A stretch of DNA of 48,035 nucleotides from Acidobacteriota bacterium (lineage in GTDB: Bacteria > Acidobacteriota > Aminicenantia > Aminicenantales > Saccharicenantaceae), in NCBI GenBank assembly GCA_029553365.1, contig JAKPCG010000177.1, positions 1-48,035 on the forward strand, given 5' to 3'. Below, one piece after another: positions 21,999 to 36,519 of the stretch. The position numbers and the translations under genes are program-made. Every line of letters starts with the position of its first letter. Position 1 is the stretch's first letter. The notes below the pieces were generated by a model. That model was not told the DNA's origin. It worked only from the letters and a program-made list of their open reading frames with translations, and did no database searches.

Positions 21999-23063
21999 TT
22001 AACTGGTCAGCGGCAAGGCGACATAGAAGGTCACCCATTTCCCCTGTTCTGATTCAAACCAGATCCGTCCTTTGTGGCTGTCAACTATCTTTTTGCAGAT
22101 ATAAAGTCCGAGACCGGAACCCTTGACTCCTTCTGTTCCGGGCTGTTTTAACCTTTCAAATTTCCTGAAAAGGCGCTGTCCATCCTCGGGTCTTATCCCC
22201 ACCCCCTCATTGTAGACAGAAAAAATCATTTCATTATCTTTCTTTTCCAGGCCAAGTTTGACTTCTGTACCTTCATATCCATACTTGATAGCATTGTTGA
22301 TAAGATTCCTGACCAGAATCTTCAACAGTCGTGGATCGCCGGTAATCTTGATGTCCTCCTGAAAATTTTTGGTAACCTTCATTTTCTTGCCATTGTCAGC
22401 TACTTCAGGCAGGTTGAGTACATCATCAACCACATCTTTGGCGAAATAGATTTCTTCTTTGAAGGCTGCCAGCTGATCCAGTTCCATTTTCGACAGATCT
22501 AAATAGCTGCGGATAATATCTTCAAGATATTCGCAGTTGCGGATAATTGTCTCCAGAATTTTCATCTGCTCTGGAGATAGCTGGCCAAAATAACCCTTGT
22601 AAAGCGTGGAGGCAGTGGTGTGAAGAGCAGAAAGCGGGCTTTTCAATTCGTGAGAGACAATAGCCATCAGGTCAAGCATATTGCGCTCTTTACCAGCCCG
22701 CGCCTCGAGCGCATTTTTGATGACCTCTCTCATTTCCTCCGGGGTAAAAGGCTTCGGAATATAATCGAAAGCTCCATTTTTCAAGGCTTCACGAGCTGTA
22801 TCAACGCTGGCATAACCGGTAAAAATGATCACCGTGGTATCCGGCCTGACCTTTCTCAACCTGGCCAGCACTTCCATGCCGCCAATTCCAGGCATTTTTA
22901 AATCAGTAACCACAATGTCATAATCTCCATTAATAGCTTTGCTCAGACCTTCTTCCCCAGATTGGGCGGTATCTATCTCATAATCTGAGCTGGCAAAAAT
23001 CCGCCGGCAACTGCGCAGGACGATTTCCTCGTCATCAATAAAGAGAATCCTTGGTTTGCTCAT
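21999..23063 (-). CDS. Hybrid protein: N-terminal receiver (REC) + histidine kinase (HisKA-HATPase)
   Basis: ILFIDDEEIVLRSCRRI...VVTDLKMPGIGGMEVL...FTGYASVDTAREALKNGAFDYIPKPF; IVSHELKSPLSALHTTAS; NLINNAIKYGYEGTEV; GSGLGLYICKKIV. Confidence 0.95.
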   Translation of the reverse strand: MSKPRILFIDDEEIVLRSCRRIFASSDYEIDTAQSGEEGLSKAINGDYDIVVTDLKMPGIGGMEVLARLRKVRPDTTVIIFTGYASVDTAREALKNGAFDYIPKPFTPEEMREVIKNALEARAGKERNMLDLMAIVSHELKSPLSALHTTASTLYKGYFGQLSPEQMKILETIIRNCEYLEDIIRSYLDLSKMELDQLAAFKEEIYFAKDVVDDVLNLPEVADNGKKMKVTKNFQEDIKITGDPRLLKILVRNLINNAIKYGYEGTEVKLGLEKKDNEMIFSVYNEGVGIRPEDGQRLFRKFERLKQPGTEGVKGSGLGLYICKKIVDSHKGRIWFESEQGKWVTFYVALPLTS

Positions 23064-23082
23064 GTCTTTTCTCCTTCCGGTT

Positions 23083-25026
23083 CTAATCCACCGGCAATCT
23101 TATAATGAACTCTGTTCCCTCGCCGACTTTGCTCTTCACATCAATCGTACCATTATGTCGCTTGATGGCTCCATAAGCCATGGCCAGCCCCAGACCTGTA
23201 CCTTTACCTTTTTCCTTGGTGGTGAAAAACGGTTCAAAAATCCGCTGCAGATTTTCCTCGCTTATCCCCACACCGGTATCAGCCACTCTTATTATAACCT
23301 CCCCCGCCTCGGAATCATACGAGGTTGAAATGGTCAGCTGACCGCCCTGGGGCATAGCATCAGCGGCGTTAACGGCCAGATTATTGATAACTGACCGGAA
23401 TTCGTCAGCATCAATTCTAACCTCAGGCAAATTCTGATCAAGGTTTTTGACAATCTTAATATTCTGGAAACTGACGTGATTTTCTAAAATCTGCAGGGTC
23501 TCTTCAATGAGAGTATTAAGATCAACACTGACCTTTTCTGGTTTGTAGTCGCGGGCAAAATCCAGCAGACCCCTGACTATCTTACGACAGCGCAGAGTTT
23601 CTTCCGTAATGACTTTTAAATCTTCCTCGTAGGGAGTGCCCTTCAGCTCTTCCAGCAGCAGGCTGCTATAGGTCAGGATTCCAGTCAGCGGATTGTTGAT
23701 TTCATGGGCGATGCCTGCCGCCAGCCGTCCGATTGAGGCTAATTTTTCTGACCGCAAAATTGTCTTCTCGGCCAGTTCTTTTAAACGGTTATCTCTTTCT
23801 TCTATAGCTTTAACCATGGCATTAAAAGATTCTTCTACTTCTCTTATCTCCTCGCTTTCTTTAGGTGAGATATCTATCAGGTGATAATTTCCCCTGGCCA
23901 CTTCGGCGGTCAACTTTATCATTCTATTTATAGGTCGGGTATAGACATTGACCAGATAGGTGGAAATATAAATGGCGATCCCGGTCATCAGGAAAATCAG
24001 GACAAAATACAAGATAGTGGTCTGTCGCAGGATCTGATCAAATTTAGACTGAAGAATACCGACATATAGCATGCCGACTGGCTGACCTTCGATATCGCGC
24101 AGCAGAGTATAACCGGAAAGATAATAATCATTGACCACAAACGCCCGGCCGAGCCAATCCTTTCCCTGCTCAAAAACCTGGTGATAGACTTCCTCTGAGA
24201 CAATCGTCCCGACTGCTCTTTTCCCATCTTTGTCCAGGACATTGGTCGCCACCCGGACATCTTCCAGAAAAATGGTGGTGGTTCCAACGTCTTTGCCTTT
24301 TATTTTCTCTTCTTTAAAGATGAACCTTCTAAAACGGTCAACAAAACGTTCGTTATTGTTAAGCAACACAGCTGCATAGAGAACCCCGACCAGTCTATTT
24401 CTCTGAAATATCGGCACCACTGTTTTAAGGACCAGAGCTCTTTCCTCGACCTCCCGACGCATGGTCCTGGCCCGTGGGGTCGGAATAATATTTATCAGCG
24501 TTCTCTCGGCCAGATCAGGCCCTTCATTTTTTATATTTTCATAGCCAAGGATACCTGTGCCAGCAGCGGGTTTTTTGTTTTTTAGAACCCATTGAATAAA
24601 TTTATAATGAATAACACTGTCCCCATAAGCCTCAAAGTTGTTAGCTCGAACCAGAATAGTACCGTCGGGCTTAACCACATTGACAATATCGAAGCCGAAT
24701 TCTTCTTTGATCTGGACAAGTTTCTCATAGAGATATTCTCTATTGCCGGCGGCTGTGGCATTGACTATCTCTGAAGTCCTGGACAGATACTCCACTATTT
24801 TTGCCCTGGTATTGATTTCTTCCTGATAAAGATCGTTAATAGCCTTCAAGCTGTTGCGCAGATTATCATAGGCTTCTCTGATGACGTTGCGGTTAATTGA
24901 GTTGATACCAATATAAATAGAAAGAGCACCCATCAGGAAAACAATAGTCAGAAGGCCGGTGATCAGCTTGAAACGCAAACTGGATCTTAAGGCAGAAGTC
25001 TTGCTCAGGAATTCCTTAAGATCCAT
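23083..25026 (-). CDS. Membrane histidine kinase with extracytoplasmic Cache-like sensor, HAMP, HisKA, HATPase
   Basis: TM-sensor-TM; [18 protein letters not shown] (HAMP); [57 protein letters not shown]. Confidence 0.95.
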
Positions 25027-25027
25027 G

Positions 25028-25438
25028 TTATTTTTTGAGGTTTTTCTCTATCTTTTCCAATAGCTCGTCAGGGTCAACCGGTTTATTCAGAAACTCATTG
25101 CGGCCAGGTAAAAAGCTCTCTTCCTGATCAAGAGAAAATCTGGAGTTAGTCACCTGGTCAATAGCGGTCAGGATAATGATGGGAATATCCCTAAAATCTT
25201 TAAATCTGGAATCTGGGCGATCACTTCTGATTTTATAAATAGCTTCAAAGCCAGCTGTGTCTGTTTCCATCATAACATCCATAATGACCAGGTCCGGTTT
25301 CGTTTCCAGCAATTTTTTCAAACCTTCTGCCCCGCTATAAGCAACCACCACCTCATAGCCTTTAAGACTTAAGATCTGACTTAAGGTGCCGGTCAGGTCA
25401 CGGTCGTCATCAACCAGTAGTATTCTGGCCATGGTCAT
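25028..25438 (-). CDS. Stand-alone receiver-domain response regulator
   Basis: ARILLVDDDRDLTGTLSQIL...DLVIMDVMMETDTAGFEAIYKIR...PIIILTAIDQ...EFLNKPVDPDELLEKIE; no output domain. Confidence 0.93.
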   Translation of the reverse strand: MTMARILLVDDDRDLTGTLSQILSLKGYEVVVAYSGAEGLKKLLETKPDLVIMDVMMETDTAGFEAIYKIRSDRPDSRFKDFRDIPIIILTAIDQVTNSRFSLDQEESFLPGRNEFLNKPVDPDELLEKIEKNLKK

Positions 25439-25995
25439 TTCCTCCCGGGAAGAAGGCGGTCATCTTCCTCGCCCAGAAGTTTATATATAACCCGGTTGCT
25501 TTCCAGAATTTTTGACTGTCGGTACATATCAACCGGAAACTCCATTTGTTTGAGCTCGACCGGTGCCACTTTCTTGTCAACCAGGCCCAGGGCCAGCGCC
25601 ACCCCGAAAATAATGGCTTCCGGTCGAGGCGGACAGCCCGGGATAAAATAATTGACAGGAATGGCTTTATCCCCGCCACCGGTCACGTTGTAAGTATCAT
25701 ACCAGCATCCCCCGCCGATAGCACAGGAGCCGACAGCAAAGACCAGCTTCGGGGCCGGCACCGCCTGATAGGCTTTCTTGACCAGAGGCAACGTCGGTCT
25801 GGTCACCGCCCCCGAGAGTAGAATAGCATCAGCATGACGGGGAGAAGCAACCAGCCTGATACCGAATCTCTCCACATCATAATAGGGCGTTAAAACATTG
25901 AGGATTTCTATGTCGCAGCCATTGCAGGCTCCGCTGTTGCAATGATAAACCCAGACCGAGCGGCGAAAAGCTTTTTCCGTTAGTCTTTTCCACAT
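25435..25995 (-). CDS. Group-4 [NiFe] hydrogenase small subunit (NuoB/HycG/HyfI-like)
   Basis: SGACNGCDIEILNVLTPYYDVERFGI, FAVGSCAIGGG, NYFIPGCPPRPEAII. Confidence 0.93.
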   Translation of the reverse strand: MWKRLTEKAFRRSVWVYHCNSGACNGCDIEILNVLTPYYDVERFGIRLVASPRHADAILLSGAVTRPTLPLVKKAYQAVPAPKLVFAVGSCAIGGGCWYDTYNVTGGGDKAIPVNYFIPGCPPRPEAIIFGVALALGLVDKKVAPVELKQMEFPVDMYRQSKILESNRVIYKLLGEEDDRLLPGRK

Positions 25996-26543
25996 GGCGA
26001 TTTCTCCAGTTTTTCAGGACGTCGATAAGTAGCCGTTTTTTCCAGAAGCTCGGGTTCCAATTCAGGCGTTGATTGCCTTATGACTTTTCTGGCTTCCAGG
26101 CTATCATAACGGTAGCCAAGCATTTGCAGCTTATCGAGGGCATTCTTTATTTCCAGGTCGAAGCAGCGACCGCAGCGCTGACAGGTCATCATAAACAGCT
26201 CCATAGTCTCTGTTATATCCTGGCGATGATCGGTGGCCAGCTCAAAATTTTCGCTCATGGTAATGGCTTTTTCCGGGCAGAGGTCAGCACATCGACCGCA
26301 ATACGTGCAGCGAGACGAATCATAAAGAAGAATCCTTATTTCCTGACAGATATCACGGAGGAAAATGGTTCTGGCCGGGCAGTTGCTGGCACAGCCGGCA
26401 CAGCCAATACATTTGGTATGATCCCAGACAGGCTGGCCGCGAAAACCGGCAGGAGCCGGCCTGGGCTTATATGGATAACGCAGGGTAACTACCCCTGTCC
26501 TGGAAGGAATGGCCAGTTGTTTGATTTTATTCCAGAGCCACAT
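25980..26543 (-). CDS. 2x[4Fe-4S] ferredoxin subunit (NuoI/HycF/HyfH-like)
   Basis: CIGCAGCASNCPARTIFL, CTYCGRCADLCPEKAITM, plus a C-terminal CQRCGRCFDLEIKNAL resembling the extra C-terminal Cys motif of HycF/HyfH. Confidence 0.93.
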   Translation of the reverse strand: MWLWNKIKQLAIPSRTGVVTLRYPYKPRPAPAGFRGQPVWDHTKCIGCAGCASNCPARTIFLRDICQEIRILLYDSSRCTYCGRCADLCPEKAITMSENFELATDHRQDITETMELFMMTCQRCGRCFDLEIKNALDKLQMLGYRYDSLEARKVIRQSTPELEPELLEKTATYRRPEKLEKSPCGKD

Positions 26544-26564: not shown

Positions 26565-27464
26565 TCACCAGCCCTTGACCGCACAACCAACCGCTATCAG
26601 GGCTAAAATTAAAAGCAAAGCGTAATATTTTAAAGCCTGGTCTATTCTAAAACGTGGATGAGTCGCTCCGATAAGAGAAATTAAGACGAAGACCACGATA
26701 ATCAGCACTGTTTGCAGGAGCAGACTGAGAAAAAAATTGGCCGGCAAAATAAAACTTAAAAAGGAAGAGATAAGAAGCCAGGCATAAAACATTCTCTTAA
26801 GATTTAAAGTATAACGGAGCAAAGCATAATTGGGTCCGCTATATTCCATATAGGGACCTTCCAGAATTTCAACTTCAGCTTCAGCAATATCAAAAGGCTG
26901 TCTGGCGACAAAAGCCTGAAGAGCCAGAAGATAAACAACCAGCATCAGAAAATAGGAGACACCTCTGCTGACCGCCACGCCTGACACAGCAGCGGTCAAA
27001 GAAAAGCTACTGATTCTTACTGTGCCCAGAATTAAGAGCATGGCCAGAACCGGTTCGAGCATAACCGTGGTCATCATTTCGCGGCTGGCTCCGACCGCAG
27101 CAAAGGGATTCCCACTGGCTAAAGCACCAACCAGCAGACAGAAACCGCTCAGGGTCAAAAAATAAATCAGGGTCATTAAGTCTGACGAATGAGCTAAAAT
27201 ATTGGCCTGACCGGTTAGAGGGATAAGGGCAATAGCCGCCAGCATTGAGCTGAAGGACAGAACAGGTGCCAGAGAGTAGGCCCAGTTCCCGCCGGAATTT
27301 AAATTTTCCTTGCCCAGAAGTTTCAGAAGATCAAGATATGGCTGATATAGCGGTGGACCTTTCCTCGATTGAATCCAGGCGGTTAGCTTTCTCATCACCC
27401 CTTCCAGAAAAGGGGCCAGCAGCAGAAAATAGATTAAATTAATGAAGACAGCCACAACCTTCAT
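26565..27464 (-). CDS. Membrane subunit NuoH/HycD/HyfC-like
   Basis: FLEGVMRKLTAWIQSRKGPPLYQPYLDLLKLLGKE; PFDIAEAEVEILEGPYMEYSGPNYALLRY. Confidence 0.95.
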   Translation of the reverse strand: MKVVAVFINLIYFLLLAPFLEGVMRKLTAWIQSRKGPPLYQPYLDLLKLLGKENLNSGGNWAYSLAPVLSFSSMLAAIALIPLTGQANILAHSSDLMTLIYFLTLSGFCLLVGALASGNPFAAVGASREMMTTVMLEPVLAMLLILGTVRISSFSLTAAVSGVAVSRGVSYFLMLVVYLLALQAFVARQPFDIAEAEVEILEGPYMEYSGPNYALLRYTLNLKRMFYAWLLISSFLSFILPANFFLSLLLQTVLIIVVFVLISLIGATHPRFRIDQALKYYALLLILALIAVGCAVKGW

Positions 27465-29152
27465 GTCTTAGACCTCATCTCTCTGGACAGTTTTTCCAGC
27501 TCCTGTCGGCTTAAAATTCTGCCGGAAGCTGATCTTCTGTCTATAACCGCCACTCGGTCTGTACAGGAAATGCAGGGATCAATTGAGCCAACTATAATGG
27601 GAAAATCAGCCAGCTTGTTGTTTAACAACATGTCAGGTACAGCCTGAAGGTTGGGATAAGTTGGTGCTCGTACCCGCCAGCGTTCTGGACGGTTATCATC
27701 ACCGGTAAGAACATAATGGACTGCTTCTCCCCGCGGTGCCTCTACTACCGACAATCCCTGTTGACCGGCTGGAATAGGATCTTCTATCTCAATAGCGAGA
27801 GGAGAACCCTGAAGCCTAGAAGCCAGTTTTTCCAGGCACTGATGGATTATCCTTATGGCCTCATAAATCTCTTTAATCCTGACCACCAGTGTTCCCCAGA
27901 CATCACCAGAATCAGCCACCACGACCTCAAATTTCACCTCGTCATAGGCAGCATAAGGATGGTCTCTCCTGGCATCTATATCCAGCCCGCGGGCTCTGGC
28001 CACCGGCCCTACCAGATTCCACTCCTTCGCCTTTTCTCTGGAGAGATAACCCACACCTTTAGTTCTCCTGTGGATAGACTTATCCTTTATAATAGCTTTT
28101 TCCAGAGCCTGCACATCTTTTTCAACTTCAGCCAGGGTTTTCTTAATCAGCTCAGCTTTGGTCAGATCAATATCACGCCTTACGCCCCCGATGATGACCA
28201 TGCCGTAAGTCTTCCTGTTGCCGGTCAGGCTTTCGGCCAGCCACATTATTTTCTCTCTTATTCTCCAGGCCTGCATAAAAACCGTATCAAAGCCGATCAG
28301 ATGGCCGGCCACTCCCAGCCACATCAGGTGGGAATGAAGCCTTTCTATTTCCAGCATAATTGTTCTGATAAACTCAGCCCGCCGGGGAATTTTAAGGCCC
28401 GAAGCCGCCTCCACTGCCTGGGCATAATTGACCGAATGCACCGAACCGCAGATCCCGCAGATCCGTTCAGCTACAAAAGGTATTTCATTATAAGTCAGCT
28501 CCGTTGCCGCTAATTTTTCAATGCCCCGATGAACCATAAAACCTCTGTACTCACAGCCCTTAATTTCTTCTCCATCTACATAAACAGCAAAATGAGCAGG
28601 CTCATGCAGACAGGCATGAAAAGGTCCAAAGGGAATTATAGAACTGCCAGGTGGAGCCTCGTCGAGCCGAAAAGCTACCTCTTCGGCCGCAGGCGGCATC
28701 AGATCATAAGGGACCTCCTGGCGTAGAGGATAAATTCCCTCCGGCCAGTCATCAGACAGTACCAGGCGTTTGGGATGGGGATGATTTTTAAAATGAAGTC
28801 CGAGAAGGTCAATATATTCACGCTCTGACCAGCCAGCACCGGGAATGAAAGGAGTAAGCGAATCAAATTCTGGCTCATCTTCTGTCGTCAAAGCCCTGAT
28901 CGCCACCAGTAGTGAATCAGCATCGAAGGCAAAGGTGTGAACCATGGCCAGACCCCGGCCATTCTTTCTGGCCTCATAGCCAACACCCATCTGATAACGG
29001 GCACCCGCTCTCATCAGCTGGTTGGCCGTCTCGACCAATGCTTCTTTTTTTATATCAATAAACAGACGGTTTTCTTCCAGACTGCTTGCCGCCAGAAAAT
29101 TTCCTTTTAATTCATCCTTAAGCAGGTTCAGCAATTCATCTTTTCTGCTCAT
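27461..29152 (-). CDS. Group-4 [NiFe] hydrogenase large subunit with fused NuoC-like domain (HycE/HyfG-like)
   Basis: N-terminal NuoC-like region; ERICGICGSVHSVNYAQAVE (L1) and GSIDPCISCTDRVAVID (L2), i.e. all four Ni-ligand Cys present. Confidence 0.95.
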   Translation of the reverse strand: MSRKDELLNLLKDELKGNFLAASSLEENRLFIDIKKEALVETANQLMRAGARYQMGVGYEARKNGRGLAMVHTFAFDADSLLVAIRALTTEDEPEFDSLTPFIPGAGWSEREYIDLLGLHFKNHPHPKRLVLSDDWPEGIYPLRQEVPYDLMPPAAEEVAFRLDEAPPGSSIIPFGPFHACLHEPAHFAVYVDGEEIKGCEYRGFMVHRGIEKLAATELTYNEIPFVAERICGICGSVHSVNYAQAVEAASGLKIPRRAEFIRTIMLEIERLHSHLMWLGVAGHLIGFDTVFMQAWRIREKIMWLAESLTGNRKTYGMVIIGGVRRDIDLTKAELIKKTLAEVEKDVQALEKAIIKDKSIHRRTKGVGYLSREKAKEWNLVGPVARARGLDIDARRDHPYAAYDEVKFEVVVADSGDVWGTLVVRIKEIYEAIRIIHQCLEKLASRLQGSPLAIEIEDPIPAGQQGLSVVEAPRGEAVHYVLTGDDNRPERWRVRAPTYPNLQAVPDMLLNNKLADFPIIVGSIDPCISCTDRVAVIDRRSASGRILSRQELEKLSREMRSKT

Positions 29153-31047
29153 TCTATTTCACCTTTTTGCTGACTATCAGGCAAAACAGCCAGCTCATTA
29201 TCGTCAATAACCTTTTTAGGCGATCCGCCCGTCCACCAGAAAAATTTCTTTAAATCAGAGAAGACATGACGGTCAGCATAAACATTGTTCGAATTTAAGT
29301 CCTGATATCCAGAAAGCCAGGCAGGAACTTTGATTTCGGCTGGATGCGCCGATCGGCTAAACCAGTAGGCCAGGAAAGCTAATAAAACAATAAGAAACAG
29401 CATTAAAAGCGGGGAAGTGGCAGCCAGGAGGCTCTGGCCGTCATAAATTTTCAAATTGAGCATATTTCCACTCAGTACATCCCCACCAGCTTCAGGCAAA
29501 AGAAAGCCAGAAGAAAGCCCAAGACTCCGGTTAATCAGTTTAACATAGCCCATAGGAAGAAAAGCCTGGCTCAAGCAAATGATGGTCAGGAAGATTTCAG
29601 AAGCCAGCAACTTCCAGGGAACTTCCTTGATGCTCTTTTTTAATTTCCAGCTGGCCCCGGCCGAAGTAAAAGCCAGACCGAAGAACTTGACATAGCAGGC
29701 TAAGGTAAAAGCAGCGGTGAATAGAGCAATAATACCGGATAGTGTCAGCAGCAAGCTGTTCCGGCCGGCCAGAAAATTAGAAGAAATCATTAACCATTTG
29801 CTGACAAAACCACTGGAAGCTGGCATACCAGAGATAGAATAAGAGGCAATGGCTGCCAGAAAGCCACTAACTGGCATGACAGCCAGCAGCCCCCCCAGGC
29901 GGTTCAAATCACGTGTGCCGGTGGCATAAAGGAGGTTTCCTCCCAGTAGAAAAAGAAGACCCTTAAAAATGCCGTGGTTAAGGCTATGATAAACAGCAGC
30001 GATAAAAATAACTGAGGCCAGGGATTTGGCCAGCAGAGAAGAACTATTCCAGGCGAGCAAACTACTCCCCAGAGCAAAAATTATGTAGCCGACCTGCCCG
30101 ATCGAGCTATAAGCCAGAAGACGGAGATAGTCGCTCTGCTTGATAGCCTGAACAGTACCAATGAAAAGCGTTAGTACTCCAGCCACCACCAGTACTTTTC
30201 CCCAGAGTTCAGGATTAAAAGCTGCGCCTGCATTTTTGGCCACAAAGAAAAAAATCCGGATTAACCCGAAAACGCCGGTCTTTTCCAGAATACCGGCCAG
30301 AAGAGAAGAGACCTGAGGCCAGGCAGTCGAATAGGCTTCGGGGATCCACCACTGTCCAAAAGGGAAAACTCCCGTTTTTATTCCGAAGCCCAGGAAGAGG
30401 AGGCTGAAAAATAAGATAGCCTGCCAGGGACCACTCTGTGCGAGCTTCAAGCCAACAGTACCCAGCGAATCACCAAATACATAGCCTTTGGCCAGGAAAG
30501 CAGAACCCGTAATCAGAAGCCAGGCGGCTTCCATAAAAAGAAGATAAACTAAAGCCGGCCGGGCAGAAATTTTAACCGGCCTTCCCCATCTAACCAGGAG
30601 ATAAGAAGAGATAACCATTAACTGCCAGGCCAGGGTAAAACCTGGTCCAAGATCATCAACGGTAAGCAGTCCGGCCAGACCACCAATAAACAGGGGCAAG
30701 ACCAGATAAAACTTCCACAGTTCGTCGGCTTTATATTTTTTGACAAAATCCAGCGAAAAAAAGACCGAGGCCAGGGTTAATATGGCCAGAAGAAGGAGAA
30801 AAAGAGCTGATAAGCCATCAATTAAAAATGGCAGATGAAAAGCTGCGACTTTAACCTCGAACTCAAAGGGCAATCCTCCTTTCCCGAGGATGGATAGGGA
30901 GATTAAGATCAGTATCAAGCAACTCAGACCGAGCAGGAAAGTCCCTGCCGGGCGAAGGTAATTAGCTTTCTTCTTCAGGATCAGAGCCAGGAAGGAAGCC
31001 AGAAGCAAACTCAGCCAGAACAGCCAGAAACCTGACAGGGTAGTCAT
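29149..31047 (-). CDS. Antiporter-like membrane subunit (NuoL/HycC/HyfB-like)
   Basis: 632 aa polytopic protein; FGIKTGVFPFGQWWIPEAYSTAWPQVSSLLAGILEKTGVFGL; LAYSSIGQVGYIIFALG; HSLNHGIFKGLLFLLGG. Confidence 0.93.
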   Translation of the reverse strand: MTTLSGFWLFWLSLLLASFLALILKKKANYLRPAGTFLLGLSCLILILISLSILGKGGLPFEFEVKVAAFHLPFLIDGLSALFLLLLAILTLASVFFSLDFVKKYKADELWKFYLVLPLFIGGLAGLLTVDDLGPGFTLAWQLMVISSYLLVRWGRPVKISARPALVYLLFMEAAWLLITGSAFLAKGYVFGDSLGTVGLKLAQSGPWQAILFFSLLFLGFGIKTGVFPFGQWWIPEAYSTAWPQVSSLLAGILEKTGVFGLIRIFFFVAKNAGAAFNPELWGKVLVVAGVLTLFIGTVQAIKQSDYLRLLAYSSIGQVGYIIFALGSSLLAWNSSSLLAKSLASVIFIAAVYHSLNHGIFKGLLFLLGGNLLYATGTRDLNRLGGLLAVMPVSGFLAAIASYSISGMPASSGFVSKWLMISSNFLAGRNSLLLTLSGIIALFTAAFTLACYVKFFGLAFTSAGASWKLKKSIKEVPWKLLASEIFLTIICLSQAFLPMGYVKLINRSLGLSSGFLLPEAGGDVLSGNMLNLKIYDGQSLLAATSPLLMLFLIVLLAFLAYWFSRSAHPAEIKVPAWLSGYQDLNSNNVYADRHVFSDLKKFFWWTGGSPKKVIDDNELAVLPDSQQKGEIE

Positions 31048-31586
31048 CAGCCTTTCTCCCTTTCAACCTGAATTGTTGTCTGTTCGCCCACCTTTTCAAG
31101 AGGTGCAGCTTTATCCAGGATCTTTTCAAAAATGGTTATCAGTTCGTCGGTGATCTTTTTGATATGAGGAGTCAATTCCTGGCCAAAACTGGTGGTTTCA
31201 GGAACAACACCCAGGAGAAAAACCTTCTTACCAGTCTTCTCCAGCAGCTGAGCGGTTAACCTCAGGGATAATTTATGAGTCGAAACAATCTGGCTGACCT
31301 CTTCCAGCTCAGCCAGCGGACCAAATATAACTGTGCCGGCTGGCGCATCGAAAAGAACAGCATCTATGAAAATTACATTCTCAACATCTTTTTGAGCCAG
31401 GGGGAAGGCATAATTTTCAGGCACATCTTCAACAACTAGCAGGTTATCGGAAGGAAAGAGTATTTTTGTCTTAATCGACTCTATAAAATACAGGCCAAAA
31501 CCGTCATCACCGCGCAATTTATTGCCGATGCCGACCAGACAGGTTCGACCGGCCAGGACTTGCTGCAAATTCTCGAGGGCTTCCAT
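31047..31586 (-). CDS. Hydrogenase maturation protease (HycI/HyaD family)
   Basis: CLVGIGNKLRGDDGFGLYFIE; VVEDVPENYAFPL; VIFIDAVLFDAPAGTVIF; STHKLSLRLTAQLLE. Confidence 0.92.
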   Translation of the reverse strand: MEALENLQQVLAGRTCLVGIGNKLRGDDGFGLYFIESIKTKILFPSDNLLVVEDVPENYAFPLAQKDVENVIFIDAVLFDAPAGTVIFGPLAELEEVSQIVSTHKLSLRLTAQLLEKTGKKVFLLGVVPETTSFGQELTPHIKKITDELITIFEKILDKAAPLEKVGEQTTIQVEREKG

Positions 31587-32426
31587 TTAGATCTGCTCTC
31601 CCAGAGTTCTAATTTGCTTATAAGTGTAAACAGGTCCATCCACACAGACCAGTGTCCGGCCTATAGCGCAATGTTGGCATTTGCCAATCCCGCATTTCAT
31701 ATGCCTTTCCAGGGTTGAATAAATATTCTGCTCTTTTATCCCTTTTAGTTTGAGTTCTTTAATCACAGCGTTAAACATGACGGGTGGCCCGCAAACAAAG
31801 GCCACTGTGTTGGACACCGGCAGATCAAGTTTAGCCGTCAGATGATTGACAAAACCAACTTCTCCAGACCAGCCCGGTTCTGGCCTATCAATTGTAAAGT
31901 GAGTCTCAAAGTTTTCTGTCGCCTGCCATTCTTTTATGCTCTCCTTGTACATCAATTCCTTTGAGCTTTTGGCCCCGTAAACCAGGATGACCCGACCAAA
32001 ATCCTGTCGGTGCTGGAGGACATGAACAATCGACGAGCGAAGTGGAATCAGACCGATCCCTCCCGCCACATAGATGATATTGCTTCCCTTTATTTCTTCG
32101 AAAGGAAAACCATTGCCAAAGGGGCCCCTGACCCCGATTTTGTCGCCCGGTTCGAGCCGATGCAGAGCAGCAGTTACTTTCCCCACCCTCCTCACCGAAA
32201 TATGCTTGCGGTCATTCTCGGGACTGAAAGGCAAAGAAACAGCGAATTCGCCTGCTTTAAAAACAGTGCACATAATAAATTGACCGGAGCGGATTTTAAA
32301 AGCCTCCTCGATTTCTGGCCGGTCGAGAGTGAAATAAAAGCTTTTGACCTCTTCAATTTCATCCCTGATATCAACGATAGTGGCAATTTCTGGAATAGAG
32401 ACTATGGGCACTAAACTTTTATTCAT
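31587..32426 (-). CDS. FAD/NAD(P)-binding oxidoreductase with C-terminal [2Fe-2S] (sulfhydrogenase gamma / AsrB-like)
   Basis: GDKIGVRGPFGNGFPFEEIKGSNIIYVAGGIGLIPLRS; VAFVCGPPVMFNAVIKELKLKG; HMKCGIGKCQHCAIGRTLVCVDGPVYTY. Confidence 0.92.
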   Translation of the reverse strand: MNKSLVPIVSIPEIATIVDIRDEIEEVKSFYFTLDRPEIEEAFKIRSGQFIMCTVFKAGEFAVSLPFSPENDRKHISVRRVGKVTAALHRLEPGDKIGVRGPFGNGFPFEEIKGSNIIYVAGGIGLIPLRSSIVHVLQHRQDFGRVILVYGAKSSKELMYKESIKEWQATENFETHFTIDRPEPGWSGEVGFVNHLTAKLDLPVSNTVAFVCGPPVMFNAVIKELKLKGIKEQNIYSTLERHMKCGIGKCQHCAIGRTLVCVDGPVYTYKQIRTLGEQI

Positions 32427-32431
32427 AGCTT

Positions 32432-33499
32432 TTATTCTCCAGATTCTCCAGTTATTTCACGTCTGATGTAGGTTACGACATTAGGCAAACCTATATCACC
32501 GGGACAGACTCTGGCACATCGACCGCAACCAACACAGCCAGGGCGAAGATATTTTTTTGACTGCGAATAAGAAAGCTTGCAGAAGAATCTCTTATTGCGG
32601 CGGTCTTCGACCGGTTTCCTTGGATTGTTATCACCGGCCATTTTCGTATAACCTTCAAACGAACAGGAATCCCAGGTCCTCAGGCGGTTGGTCTCCCCGC
32701 TGGCCAGATTAGCATCCTCAATATTAAAACAGGAGCAGGTGGGACAAACAAAAGAGCAGGCTCCGCACTCAAAACACTGATTACCGATATATTCCCAGAC
32801 CTCAGGTTTGATAAAGCCGGTGGTCAACCGATTGGTCGCCCGAGAAATCCAGGCCTTGTTTTCCAGGGCAAAGCGATCAAACGAAGAGACAGAATCATCT
32901 ACAATTTTTTTCTTCAGGGTTAAAGCTTCCGGGCCTGCTTCAGGCAGGTGAAGATCGGCAATTAAAGCCAGGCCTTTTTTTGAACCAGCTTCAACCAGGT
33001 AACCGCGTCCGGTAAAAGTCAAATCCAGATCAAAACCATCTTTAGCCGCCGGCCCGCTATCCGTACAGACACAGAAACACTGAGGAAACGGACGCAGACA
33101 GGTATTGGAGATAATGAACAGCTTTTTTCGGTGAGCCAGATAAAATTCATCAACATATTCCTGGTCGAGGAAAAAGCGATCGAGACAGAGTAAACCAGTC
33201 AGATCGCAAGATCTCAAACCAATTAAAGCCTTCGGTTCGAGAAGATTGATCTGTTCAATTCTGACTTCTTTTGTCTCTGGCTGGTAGCGATATTTAAGAA
33301 TTTCTTCATAGTGAGGGAAAAGAATAAATTTGGGTGGGTTATAAGGAATGGCCGCCTGCAAATCCAGCTCGGACCAGTCAGACAGATGATCAAAGATCAC
33401 CTCACCAGATACACGGTCATGGCGCGGACCAAAAATTTTATACTCTTCGGCCAGTTTTTTAACCAGCAACAGTAACTGTTCCTTTGTCAGCCAGTACAT
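32432..33499 (-). CDS. 4Fe-4S dicluster protein (sulfhydrogenase beta / AsrA-like)
   Basis: IGLRSCDLTGLLCLDRFF; CFECGACSFVCPTCSCFNIED; PGCVGCGRCARVCPGDIGL. Confidence 0.92.
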   Translation of the reverse strand: MYWLTKEQLLLLVKKLAEEYKIFGPRHDRVSGEVIFDHLSDWSELDLQAAIPYNPPKFILFPHYEEILKYRYQPETKEVRIEQINLLEPKALIGLRSCDLTGLLCLDRFFLDQEYVDEFYLAHRKKLFIISNTCLRPFPQCFCVCTDSGPAAKDGFDLDLTFTGRGYLVEAGSKKGLALIADLHLPEAGPEALTLKKKIVDDSVSSFDRFALENKAWISRATNRLTTGFIKPEVWEYIGNQCFECGACSFVCPTCSCFNIEDANLASGETNRLRTWDSCSFEGYTKMAGDNNPRKPVEDRRNKRFFCKLSYSQSKKYLRPGCVGCGRCARVCPGDIGLPNVVTYIRREITGESGE

Positions 33500-33502
33500 A
33501 GC

Positions 33503-35521
33503 TTAAACCACCTTTTCCAATCTGACCGGCAGAAAGAACTCCTCGTTCTTTTCTAAGTCAGCCACCTGCCGGTGAAGAAATTCTGGAATCATTTCATCAA
33601 TAAAGTAAGGTATATAAAGCATACCGGGCAGAATATCGCCTGAAATTCTGGCGGCCAGCCTGACCTCAGCCGATTCAGCCACCACCCTCACCATTTGTTT
33701 TTCTCTCAAGCCAAGACGGCTGGCATCTTCTGTCGAAATTTCAACAAAACCTCTGGGATAAAGAAGGAGAAGGGCATTATATTCGCGTTTGGGGATAAAA
33801 GTTCTTTTCATGACGGAATTCTGGTGCCAGAAATAATTGCTCCGCCCCACTACTAATTTAAAGGGAAACTCTTTTTGAATCTCCGGCTCACCGGTCAGTT
33901 TTTCCTCCTGGCCGTTTACCTGAACAAATTGAAAGCGCCGGCCTGCTTCTTCTACCAGCAAGCAATCTGTACCTTCAGGATGAAGATCATCCGCTGGCCA
34001 TTTCAAGCCAAGTCTGGTCTTGAGTTTTTCGTAACTCAGACCTTGATAATAAGGAATCAGCTGACTTATCTCACCCATGATGCTTTCAACCGAATGATAA
34101 TTCCAGTCATGCCCGAGAGCCAGGGCCAGGTTAGTCAGAGTTTTCCATAAGGGACGTACCCCGGCTGGGGGCTCGATTCTTTTCTGAACCAGCTGAACTC
34201 GACGTTCAGAGTTGGTATAAGTTCCATCCTCTTCAATGTAGCTCGTTCTGGGAAAAATAACATGAGCCAGAGAGGCAAACGGATTCTCATAAGCACCAAA
34301 ATAAACTATTAAATCAAGCTGTCTTATTCGGTTGACATGTCTGATAATTTCCTCATCATGATCAACAACAAAAAGAGCCTTTATATCTTTCTCTTCCGAC
34401 AGGCAGGTGTCGACATTCTTACCTGGCCAGCGCTCCAGCCTGGTCTGCCAGAAATTTTCGAGTCTCTCCCAGGCCAACTCATCCTCAACCGAAGCGTAAC
34501 CAGGCAGGAAAACAGGCGAAAGGCCCATATCATAGCTGCCCAGAAGATTACTGATGCCAGTAACGGGATTTATCCCGCTGCCACGTCGTCCAATTTTCCC
34601 GGCTAAAAGGAAAAGGTTAAAGAGAGCAGCCATTGTTCGGCGATCAAGACTCTGCACTCCGGTTGGGTAAAAGGCATAAGCTGAATTAGATTCTATTAAC
34701 TTTTCAGTCAATTCAGTCATCTCTTCTCTGCTTATACCGGTCAGCTCTACTATCTTTTCAATTTCGATCTGCTTTAACTCGTCGAGAAAAGCCTGACTGT
34801 TGACTGTAAACCTTGACAGGTAATCATCATCAATAGCCTTCTCCTCAACCAGAACTCTGGCTAAACCCTGGAGCAGGTAAAAAATTGTTCCCGGCCTGGG
34901 TCTAAGATGTAGCTGGCTGAGTCTGGCCATTTGCGTCTTCCGGGGAGAAATGGTTGCTAAAAAAGTCCCGCCTCGATGGGCATGATGGATTTCGCTGGCG
35001 ATAATCGGATTCTGCTTGGTCAGGTCGCCGCCGACAACCAGGATAAAATCAGCCTGTCTCAATTCAGCCAGCGTCCCGGTCATGGCTGGCCAGCCACAGC
35101 CCTCAAGAAGCACCCTGGCACTTTCTTCCTGACCGGCATCAGACGATAGGCTTAGATTATTTGTTTTCAGGATCGTCCTGGCAAACTTACCCAGCAGATA
35201 ATTCTCTTCGTTAGAGGCCCGAGGAGAACCAAGAACAGCTAGCTGGCGGCCAGACAGTTTTTTTACCTTTTCCACCACATAATCAAGAGCTTCTTCATAA
35301 GAGACAGGCTTGAAACTGCCACCGTCTTTAATGAGGGGCTGGGTAATTCTATCTTCCGTCTGCAAGAGCTCGTGAATATGCCAGCCGCGGACACATAGCC
35401 GGCCACGACTCAATGGATGACCGGACACGGGATAAACACCTCTTACCCGGTTGCCTTCCACCCGCAGCAGGTGGCCACAACCAGTACCGCAGAAGTTGCA
35501 TATACCTCGATAATAAGGCAA
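33503..35521 (-). CDS. Molybdopterin oxidoreductase-family protein, FdhF/NuoG-like, catalytic residue apparently lost
   Basis: CNFCGTGCGHLLRVEGNRVRGV...RGRLCVRGW; ADFILVVGGDLTKQNPIIASEI; LFLLAGKIGRRGSGINPVTGISNLLGSYDMG. Confidence 0.93.
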   Translation of the reverse strand: MPYYRGICNFCGTGCGHLLRVEGNRVRGVYPVSGHPLSRGRLCVRGWHIHELLQTEDRITQPLIKDGGSFKPVSYEEALDYVVEKVKKLSGRQLAVLGSPRASNEENYLLGKFARTILKTNNLSLSSDAGQEESARVLLEGCGWPAMTGTLAELRQADFILVVGGDLTKQNPIIASEIHHAHRGGTFLATISPRKTQMARLSQLHLRPRPGTIFYLLQGLARVLVEEKAIDDDYLSRFTVNSQAFLDELKQIEIEKIVELTGISREEMTELTEKLIESNSAYAFYPTGVQSLDRRTMAALFNLFLLAGKIGRRGSGINPVTGISNLLGSYDMGLSPVFLPGYASVEDELAWERLENFWQTRLERWPGKNVDTCLSEEKDIKALFVVDHDEEIIRHVNRIRQLDLIVYFGAYENPFASLAHVIFPRTSYIEEDGTYTNSERRVQLVQKRIEPPAGVRPLWKTLTNLALALGHDWNYHSVESIMGEISQLIPYYQGLSYEKLKTRLGLKWPADDLHPEGTDCLLVEEAGRRFQFVQVNGQEEKLTGEPEIQKEFPFKLVVGRSNYFWHQNSVMKRTFIPKREYNALLLLYPRGFVEISTEDASRLGLREKQMVRVVAESAEVRLAARISGDILPGMLYIPYFIDEMIPEFLHRQVADLEKNEEFFLPVRLEKVV

Positions 35522-35599
35522 TCTTTTTCTCCTCGGCAGTCAGGTTTTGAGACTTATATTTTTTCTCTTGCGTTTTAAAATCAAAAATACCAGAAAACG

Positions 35600-36112
35600 C
35601 TAATCTTGTAAACTGTTTAAGTTCAGACGCGAAATAAAAATGCTCAGAAGATACCTGGTGTTGTAAAGAGTTGAGATCCCTCCCAGGAACCTTTCTTTAA
35701 TCATACCCTTGGGCAATTCGTCGATGGCCGCTTTCAGTTCGTCCAGTGAAGCCTGCAGGCGACTGAAAGAAGAAACGAGAAGCGGCAGGTCTCCCGAACG
35801 TTGGTAATCGTCCAGGAGTCCGGCTATTGATTCGGGCTGATCAAAAGCCCGTCTGAAAAAATCCTTAACTGCAGCCGGCAGCCCGGCCAGGGCCTTTTCC
35901 AGCAGACAGCATCTGGCCAGTTGATAACCAAGCCTGACTTCATCCAGGTCTCTTTTAACAAATTTCTCTGGATGAAGTTCAAAATAAGCCTGCCCCAGGG
36001 CTTCCATTTGCCGGCTGTCCAGATCAAAATCACCGCCCAGCTTTCTGACCTCCTGGCAAAAGACTTCCAGATCTGAATTTTGCCGAAAAAGGTCAGCCAG
36101 AGAAATACTCAT
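35600..36112 (-). CDS. Hypothetical helical protein (170 aa) in the hydrogenase cluster
   Basis: ORF in the same orientation, 30 bp downstream of a receiver gene and 78 bp upstream of the Mo protein; no family recognised. Confidence 0.75.
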   Translation of the reverse strand: MSISLADLFRQNSDLEVFCQEVRKLGGDFDLDSRQMEALGQAYFELHPEKFVKRDLDEVRLGYQLARCCLLEKALAGLPAAVKDFFRRAFDQPESIAGLLDDYQRSGDLPLLVSSFSRLQASLDELKAAIDELPKGMIKERFLGGISTLYNTRYLLSIFISRLNLNSLQD

Positions 36113-36141: not shown

Positions 36142-36519
36142 TCAGGACTTTTTTCTGTGTTTTTCAATTACACCGAGCAGCAAATCGAAATTGACCGGCT
36201 TCTGAAAAACTCCATTAAAACCTAACTCGTCAAGACCAATAGTTCGGGCGGTGGCATCACCGATAGTACTTAACAGAAAAACTGGCAGCTCAGGTTGTTC
36301 TTTCTTGATCACCCCGGCCACTTTTGCCCCGGCATCTATGTCTTCCATCATCATATCGCATAGAACAATATCTGGATGAACCTGATGGAAAAGCTCAAGC
36401 CCTTCCTTCCCACTTAAGGCTGTGAACACCTCATAGCCACTGGCTTCCAGAATAGCTTTAACTGAAACACAAATAGCCGGATCGTCATCTATCACCAGAA
36501 TTTTGGTTTTATCAGGCAT
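36142..36519 (-). CDS. Stand-alone receiver-domain response regulator
   Basis: KILVIDDDPAICVSVKAILEASGYEV...DIVLCDMMMEDIDAGAKVAGVI...FLLSTIGD...GVFQKPVNFDLLLGVI; GGAGGAACC SD; no output domain. Confidence 0.92.
   Translation of the reverse strand: MPDKTKILVIDDDPAICVSVKAILEASGYEVFTALSGKEGLELFHQVHPDIVLCDMMMEDIDAGAKVAGVIKKEQPELPVFLLSTIGDATARTIGLDELGFNGVFQKPVNFDLLLGVIEKHRKKS

Follow-up and report, generated by a model that had tools for sequence, protein, structure and literature searches.

FdhFd, an FdhF-like protein of 672 residues encoded in the window (the whole stretch of DNA analysed here, 48,035 nucleotides in length), has lost the formate site of the formate dehydrogenases (FDHs) it otherwise resembles. 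With a probability of about 0.7, we consider it to be a formate-inactive and probably molybdenum-free homologue of FdhF that relays electrons within a formate hydrogenlyase (FHL)-type group 4 [NiFe] hydrogenase. An earlier note on this DNA had proposed that the protein is not a formate dehydrogenase, and this stands, because all three residues of the Sec/Cys, His and Arg triad have gone, their loss is fixed in two phyla and the activating protein FdhD is missing from every relative searched. The note's suggestion of an electron-wiring subunit analogous to NuoG is the best-supported reading of its function; we infer it from the surroundings of the gene, as the operon joins HydB and HydG to a group 4 hydrogenase with invariant cluster cysteines, and from the solved precedent of StnC. 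Little supports the note's other option, a different substrate.

The gene and its neighbors are listed in Table 1. Pfam recognises all three molybdopterin oxidoreductase domains in FdhFd, the C-terminal Moco domain included, and the closest solved proteins are true FDHs, namely the F420-dependent enzyme 9t1s, the FdhF of hydrogen-dependent CO2 reductase, ForC and E. coli FdhF. Against TIGR01591 (formate dehydrogenase alpha) FdhFd scores 422 bits, far below the curated equivalog cut-off of 666. The score against TIGR01973 (NuoG) is 142.7 bits, for a cut-off of 470, and the match begins at model position 213, past the ferredoxin part. The motifs quoted in the earlier note (NNLSLSSDAGQEESARVLLEGCGWPAM, LCVRG and GISNLLG) occur in FdhFd as written, the N-terminal CxxCxxxC...C [4Fe-4S] motif was correctly described as intact (Cys8, Cys11, Cys15 and Cys43), and the E. 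coli FdhF segment given there is that of fdhF in NC_000913.3.

Table 1. Features of the hydrogenase operon and of fdhFd in the window
Feature	Coordinates	Strand	Remark
FdhF-like subunit (FdhFd), formate site lost	33503..35521	-	672 aa; TTG start at 35521, stop at 33503
AGGAG ribosome-binding-like site 5' of the TTG start	35529..35533	-	seven bases from the start
[4Fe-4S] motif codons, Cys8, Cys11, Cys15 ... Cys43	35393..35500	-	invariant in orthologs
Codons Asp128-Ala129-Gly130-Gln131	35129..35140	-	E. coli FdhF Arg138-Val139-Sec140-His141 positions
Codon Thr321	34559..34561	-	E. coli FdhF Arg333 position
HydB-like iron-sulfur subunit	32432..33499	-	sulfhydrogenase beta / AsrA family
HydG-like FAD/NAD(P)/[2Fe-2S] subunit	31587..32426	-	sulfhydrogenase gamma / AsrB / PyrK family
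HycI-like [NiFe] hydrogenase maturation protease	31047..31586	-	
NuoL/HycC/HyfB-like antiporter-type membrane subunit	29149..31047	-	
HycE-like [NiFe] large subunit, fused 30-kDa domain	27461..29152	-	RICGIC and DPCISCT intact
NuoH/HycD-like membrane subunit	26565..27464	-	
HycF/NuoI-like 2x[4Fe-4S] subunit	25980..26543	-	
HycG/NuoB-like small subunit	25435..25995	-	
Stand-alone response regulator receiver	25028..25438	-	conserved in operon
Histidine kinase, Cache_3 sensor domain	23083..25026	-	conserved in operon
Receiver-histidine kinase protein	21999..23063	-	conserved in operon
170-aa protein	35600..36112	-	conserved 5' of fdhFd
Stand-alone response regulator receiver	36142..36519	-	conserved upstream of fdhFd

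An AlphaFold2 model built with 31 aligned family members has a mean pLDDT of 81 and a pTM of 0.86. Its best Foldseek matches are FDHs and NapA, with TM scores (by query length) of about 0.80-0.84, and mycobacterial NuoG is matched at 0.63. The modelled fold is that of a whole FdhF and not of NuoG, so that FdhFd is better called analogous to NuoG than a NuoG. FdhFd shares with formate dehydrogenase alpha the FDH fold and the N-terminal [4Fe-4S] motif. Two loops of the model, 324-332 and 561-580, have pLDDT values below 50, and by alignment they lie near the expected cofactor site.

The formate site was compared in three alignments, produced by phmmer to the solved FDHs, MAFFT to E. coli FdhF and blastp to FdhF. 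All three agree, with no gap near the site, that Sec140 is replaced by Gly130 and His141 by Gln131, as had been read by eye, and at Arg333, the third position named for checking in the earlier note, FdhFd has Thr321. That note had also allowed that the Cys of LLEGCGW might be found to serve as the metal ligand; other orthologs have Ala, Gly, Ser or Thr in its place, so it is not conserved, and we rejected it as a molybdenum ligand. Further substitutions relative to E. coli FdhF are Lys44 to Arg45, Arg138 to Asp128, Asn176 to Asp166, His181 to Asn171 and Gln335 to Ile323. Changes found in nearly all orthologs are those of Lys44 to Arg, Asn176 to Asp, His181 to Asn, Gln335 to Ile, Val or Leu, and Gly402-Glu403 to Asp-His. 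The Arg138 position is Asp or Glu across the orthologs, with Asp128 invariant in a 20-row Aminicenantes alignment and Asp or Glu found in Spirochaetes. Of 102 columns in which at least 95% of 21 catalytic FDHs agree, FdhFd keeps the FDH-type residue in 46, including several of NPVxGxxN and DGTYTNxERR, and the family carries an insertion in the C-terminal domain with the signature TxIPxREYNALLLLYPxG. Several of the altered positions fall in what we take to be the guanine-dinucleotide binding loops, and binding of bis-MGD has therefore probably been lost.

Clear orthologs of FdhFd are present in 15 of the 18 other Ca. Saccharicenans genomes at 65-93% identity, further ones with 44-50% identity come from the same family and order, and others were found in MAGs of Spirochaetes, including 29/46 genomes of one class. 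No Cys or Sec was seen at the Sec140 position in any of the orthologs examined, which come from more than 50 genomes of Aminicenantes, Spirochaetes and other Acidobacteriota; the residue is Gly, or Trp in three Aminicenantes and Thr in one other Acidobacteriota. In the same set, His141 is represented by His, Gln, Leu or Tyr and Arg333 by Thr, Ala, Val, Pro or Ser. When genuine FDHs are taken through the same procedure, whether they come from these Spirochaete genomes or from other Acidobacteriota, they give U or C followed by His, together with Arg333. Because Cys/Sec is missing in all of these genomes and the controls read properly, the loss is not due to chance or sequencing error, and it is a fixed trait of the family across two phyla. 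By profile score, full-length FdhFd orthologs (at least about 850 bits) stand apart from true FDHs (at most about 510 bits), with one full-length protein between them. Cluster cysteines 8, 11, 15 and 43 are invariant in all orthologs aligned. The fdhFd gene is under purifying selection, with dN/dS of 0.08-0.11 (about 0.09); the values between the gene of the window and four relatives are 0.086-0.088. A decaying gene was considered and is ruled out by this ratio and by the absence of internal stops in the orthologs.

The fdhFd gene opens a tight run encoding FdhFd, HydB, HydG, HycI, NuoL, the HycE-like subunit, NuoH, NuoI and NuoB, followed by a receiver protein, a Cache-domain histidine kinase and a receiver-kinase. 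Spirochaetes share this arrangement with Ca. Saccharicenans and with another family of its order. The HydB-like and HydG-like subunits find their best solved matches in the beta and gamma subunits of P. furiosus sulfhydrogenase I (9nez B and C), and they score below the equivalog cut-offs of NF040829 and NF040833, so we regard them as homologues rather than as the same enzyme. The nearest solved relative of the large subunit is E. coli HycE (E 1e-124). Both [NiFe] CxxC motifs, RICGIC and DPCxxCT, are present in 30/30 operons, and these motifs with the Nuo-like membrane and Fe-S subunits are what marks a group 4 [NiFe] hydrogenase of the FHL type. The cluster cysteines of HydB, NuoI and NuoB and the [2Fe-2S] cysteines of HydG are likewise invariant or nearly so in 30-31 operons. 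With cluster and [NiFe] cysteines retained, the formate site is the sole missing part of the operon's complex. The catalytic FDH subunit and HycB-type ferredoxin of a group 4a formate hydrogenlyase are not found in the operon; no gene for such a ferredoxin, with which FdhF is partnered in E. coli, is present in it, and HydB and HydG occupy its place. Nor does the operon encode a GltD-like module, the flavoprotein partner of FdhFd being the HydG-like subunit.

Other genes travel with the operon. The 170-aa protein, which has no Pfam or NCBIfam match, is kept beside the hydrogenase operon in Aminicenantes and some Spirochaetes. The two-component genes (21999-25438 and 36142-36519) accompany the hydrogenase in two phyla, which suggests dedicated H2/redox or ligand signalling.

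Operons of the same design, more divergent in sequence, were found in other Acidobacteriota at loci L183, L201, L202, L203 and L205. Their FdhF-like subunits have His, Thr or Ala at the Sec position and are missing Arg333, the L203 subunit being truncated and poorly aligned, and the divergent homologues with a readable N-terminus retain the [4Fe-4S] motif. Two of these subunits, at L183:10224-12323 and L202:10483-12504, have His and Ala respectively at the Sec position, and the L202 operon carries two NuoL-like genes. In a phylogenetic tree, 34 FdhFd-type and divergent proteins fall on one side and 20 catalytic FDHs on the other with a support of 93, and a second tree agrees; the 30 FdhFd rows alone are grouped with a support of 100. 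Long branches make the placement of L201, L202 and L203 relative to one another unreliable. In a sample of 347 genomes of the phylum, HydB matches of at least about 290 bits were found in 15, and all of them adjoin an FdhFd-type gene. Our survey of two phyla found no operon that combines HydB, HydG and a group 4 hydrogenase with a live FdhF. Because the divergent operons of the same design are also without Cys/Sec and group with FdhFd, complexes of the HydB-HydG group 4 hydrogenase type seem to be characterised by a lost formate site.

FdhD is needed to activate FDHs of the E. coli type. It was not found in any of the 60 relatives searched, with positive results in 8 of 14 control genomes. MoaA, MoaC and MoeA were not found in the possibly incomplete Spirochaete genome G064, which carries FdhFd and, besides it, a single weak PF00384 match of the NuoG type. 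Judged from such gene content and from the altered residues, FdhFd is likely Moco-free. Most Saccharicenans genomes have the genes to make Moco, so the cofactor could reach FdhFd there. The absence of MoaC, MoeA and MoaA from the genome of the window is unusable as evidence, as this MAG is 74.5% complete and its genus mates have them. Missing Moco genes in the Aminicenantes genomes G019, G034, G046 and G056 would have made a clean argument for a Moco-free protein; the argument is weakened because G034 has a true Cys-His FDH and all four have other DMSO-reductase-type proteins, and we rely on G064 instead. Gene absences are uncertain in MAGs with gaps, G034 being the case in point: MoaA, MoaC, MoeA and FdhD were not detected in this 95%-complete Aminicenantes genome, in which a genuine Cys-His-Arg FDH is encoded (L036 / L100, G034:C71:17869-19872). 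Elsewhere, a molybdopterin oxidoreductase of the DMSO-reductase type, 766 aa long and with relatives in other Aminicenantes, is encoded at L034:14127-16427 (contig C115); it carries SWACITPAT close to the metal site. A second degenerate FdhF-like protein of 605 aa, with a weak PF00384 match, is encoded in the window's genome at L035:1040-2857 (contig C163). It is followed directly by a 277-aa ORF (L035:214-1047, the contig ending in the gene) that resembles by eye a PyrK/HydG-type FAD/NAD flavoprotein, and this pair is possibly an Nfn/Stn-like complex.

We propose that the molybdenum domain of FdhFd would serve as a scaffold and docking surface, with the N-terminal [4Fe-4S] cluster acting as an electron relay. 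Electrons from NAD(P)H would enter at the FAD of HydG and pass by way of the HydG [2Fe-2S] cluster to the clusters of HydB. From there they could move to FdhFd, directly to NuoI and NuoB, or by both routes to the [NiFe] site, which would reduce protons or, in reverse, oxidise H2. The NuoL/NuoH membrane arm would couple this reaction to ion movement. In FHL, electrons run from FdhF through its [4Fe-4S] cluster to HycB, HycF, HycG and the [NiFe] site (PMC9474812). The FdhF-like domain of StnC in StnABC is catalytically inactive and nonetheless carries clusters in an NADPH-linked complex (PMC10482914), and Stn did not show formate oxidation (PMC7483475). For the FdhFd complex, we infer the absence of Moco, the nucleotide used, the path and direction of the electrons and the coupling to ions.

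FdhFd could be purely structural or regulatory, with electrons passing from HydB directly to NuoI and NuoB, since the matching N7 cluster of NDUFS1 is off-pathway in many forms of complex I (PMC9474812); FdhF is also loosely attached in E. coli FHL (PMC9474812). The four invariant cluster cysteines in all aligned orthologs, and the motif kept in the divergent homologues whose N-terminus can be read, speak against a cluster that carries no electrons, and we regard this reading as unlikely, while giving it more weight than any other alternative. An electron relay remains the function we prefer.

FdhFd might instead still bind bis-MGD with Mo or W and act on another substrate, with Asp128 as the metal ligand in the manner of the Asp of nitrate reductase NarG. 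An acidic residue stands two positions ahead of the former Sec and would suit such a role, much of the molybdenum domain is conserved and modelled as an FDH fold, and Moco genes are present in most Saccharicenans. However, FDH-conserved positions are changed family-wide (Asn176Asp, His181Asn and Gly402-Glu403 to Asp-His), the divergent subunits of the same operon type are without the acidic residue, one genome carrying FdhFd yielded no MoaA, MoaC or MoeA, and model confidence is low in the loops near the expected active site; we consider this improbable. The overall fold and the TIGR01591 match favor a last reading, that FdhFd is catalytically active as a formate dehydrogenase whose active site is unusual, in an ordinary formate hydrogenlyase. 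This reading is contradicted by the sequence, in which Sec/Cys, His and Arg are all replaced and the TIGR01591 score is far under the cut-off, as well as by the missing FdhD and by HydB and HydG standing where a HycB-type ferredoxin would be expected, and we give it almost no credence. Our preferred reading is still that of a formate-inactive relay in a hydrogenase complex.

Annotation by homology would call this operon a formate hydrogenlyase, and genomes of Aminicenantes and Spirochaetes would be wrongly credited with formate oxidation via the FdhFd complex. No published description of the operon was found in the open-access literature, subscription papers being outside the scope of the search. 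It is conceivable, at somewhat less than even odds, that the operon represents an undescribed energy-converting class in which NAD(P)H drives an FHL-type proton-pumping [NiFe] hydrogenase via a sulfhydrogenase-like module and a Mo-free FdhF. If so, it would parallel, independently and in living organisms, the step proposed to lead from formate hydrogenlyase to complex I, and such complexes would be spread over Aminicenantes, other Acidobacteriota and Spirochaetes, wired to their own two-component system. If the wiring is right, an FDH has been made a passive NAD(P)H relay more than once in bacteria, and the route from formate hydrogenlyase to complex I (PMC9474812) becomes testable in a second, independent lineage.

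With E. coli FHL-1 (FdhF and HycBCDEFG) the operon shares HycE-, HycF-, HycG-, HycC- and HycD-like subunits and an FdhF-like subunit with a [4Fe-4S] cluster; unlike FHL-1, its FdhFd has lost the active site, HydB and HydG replace HycB, and two-component genes are part of the operon. The large subunit is FHL-like, as in groups 4a and 4f of HydDB, where group 4f is described as 'formate-coupled (putative), undetermined role' (PMC5037454). Formate coupling as assumed for enzymes of these types cannot hold for the FdhFd operon, to judge by its residues, which makes it a concrete case in which HydDB's 'putative' coupling of some group 4 hydrogenases would fail. P. furiosus sulfhydrogenase I (HydBGDA, group 3b) has the nearest solved counterparts of the HydB and HydG electron-input subunits, whose cluster and flavin motifs are conserved; in the FdhFd operon these subunits are combined with a membrane-bound group 4 hydrogenase and an FdhF-like protein and not with the soluble HydDA. 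NuoG/NDUFS1 is likewise a molybdopterin-enzyme-like subunit of the same superfamily, without the catalytic Cys and in an NAD(P)H-linked complex, but FdhFd keeps the whole FdhF fold and C-terminal domain, has no N-terminal ferredoxin domains and groups with FDHs. StnC, NfnC, NsoC and SfrA also have an inactive FdhF-like domain with an Fe-S cluster wired to an NADPH flavoprotein; in their soluble complexes a GltD-like NADPH module is either fused to this domain or its separate partner, in contrast to FdhFd, a separate subunit of a membrane [NiFe] hydrogenase operon. On these comparisons, the best reading is that FdhFd is convergent with NuoG and StnC.
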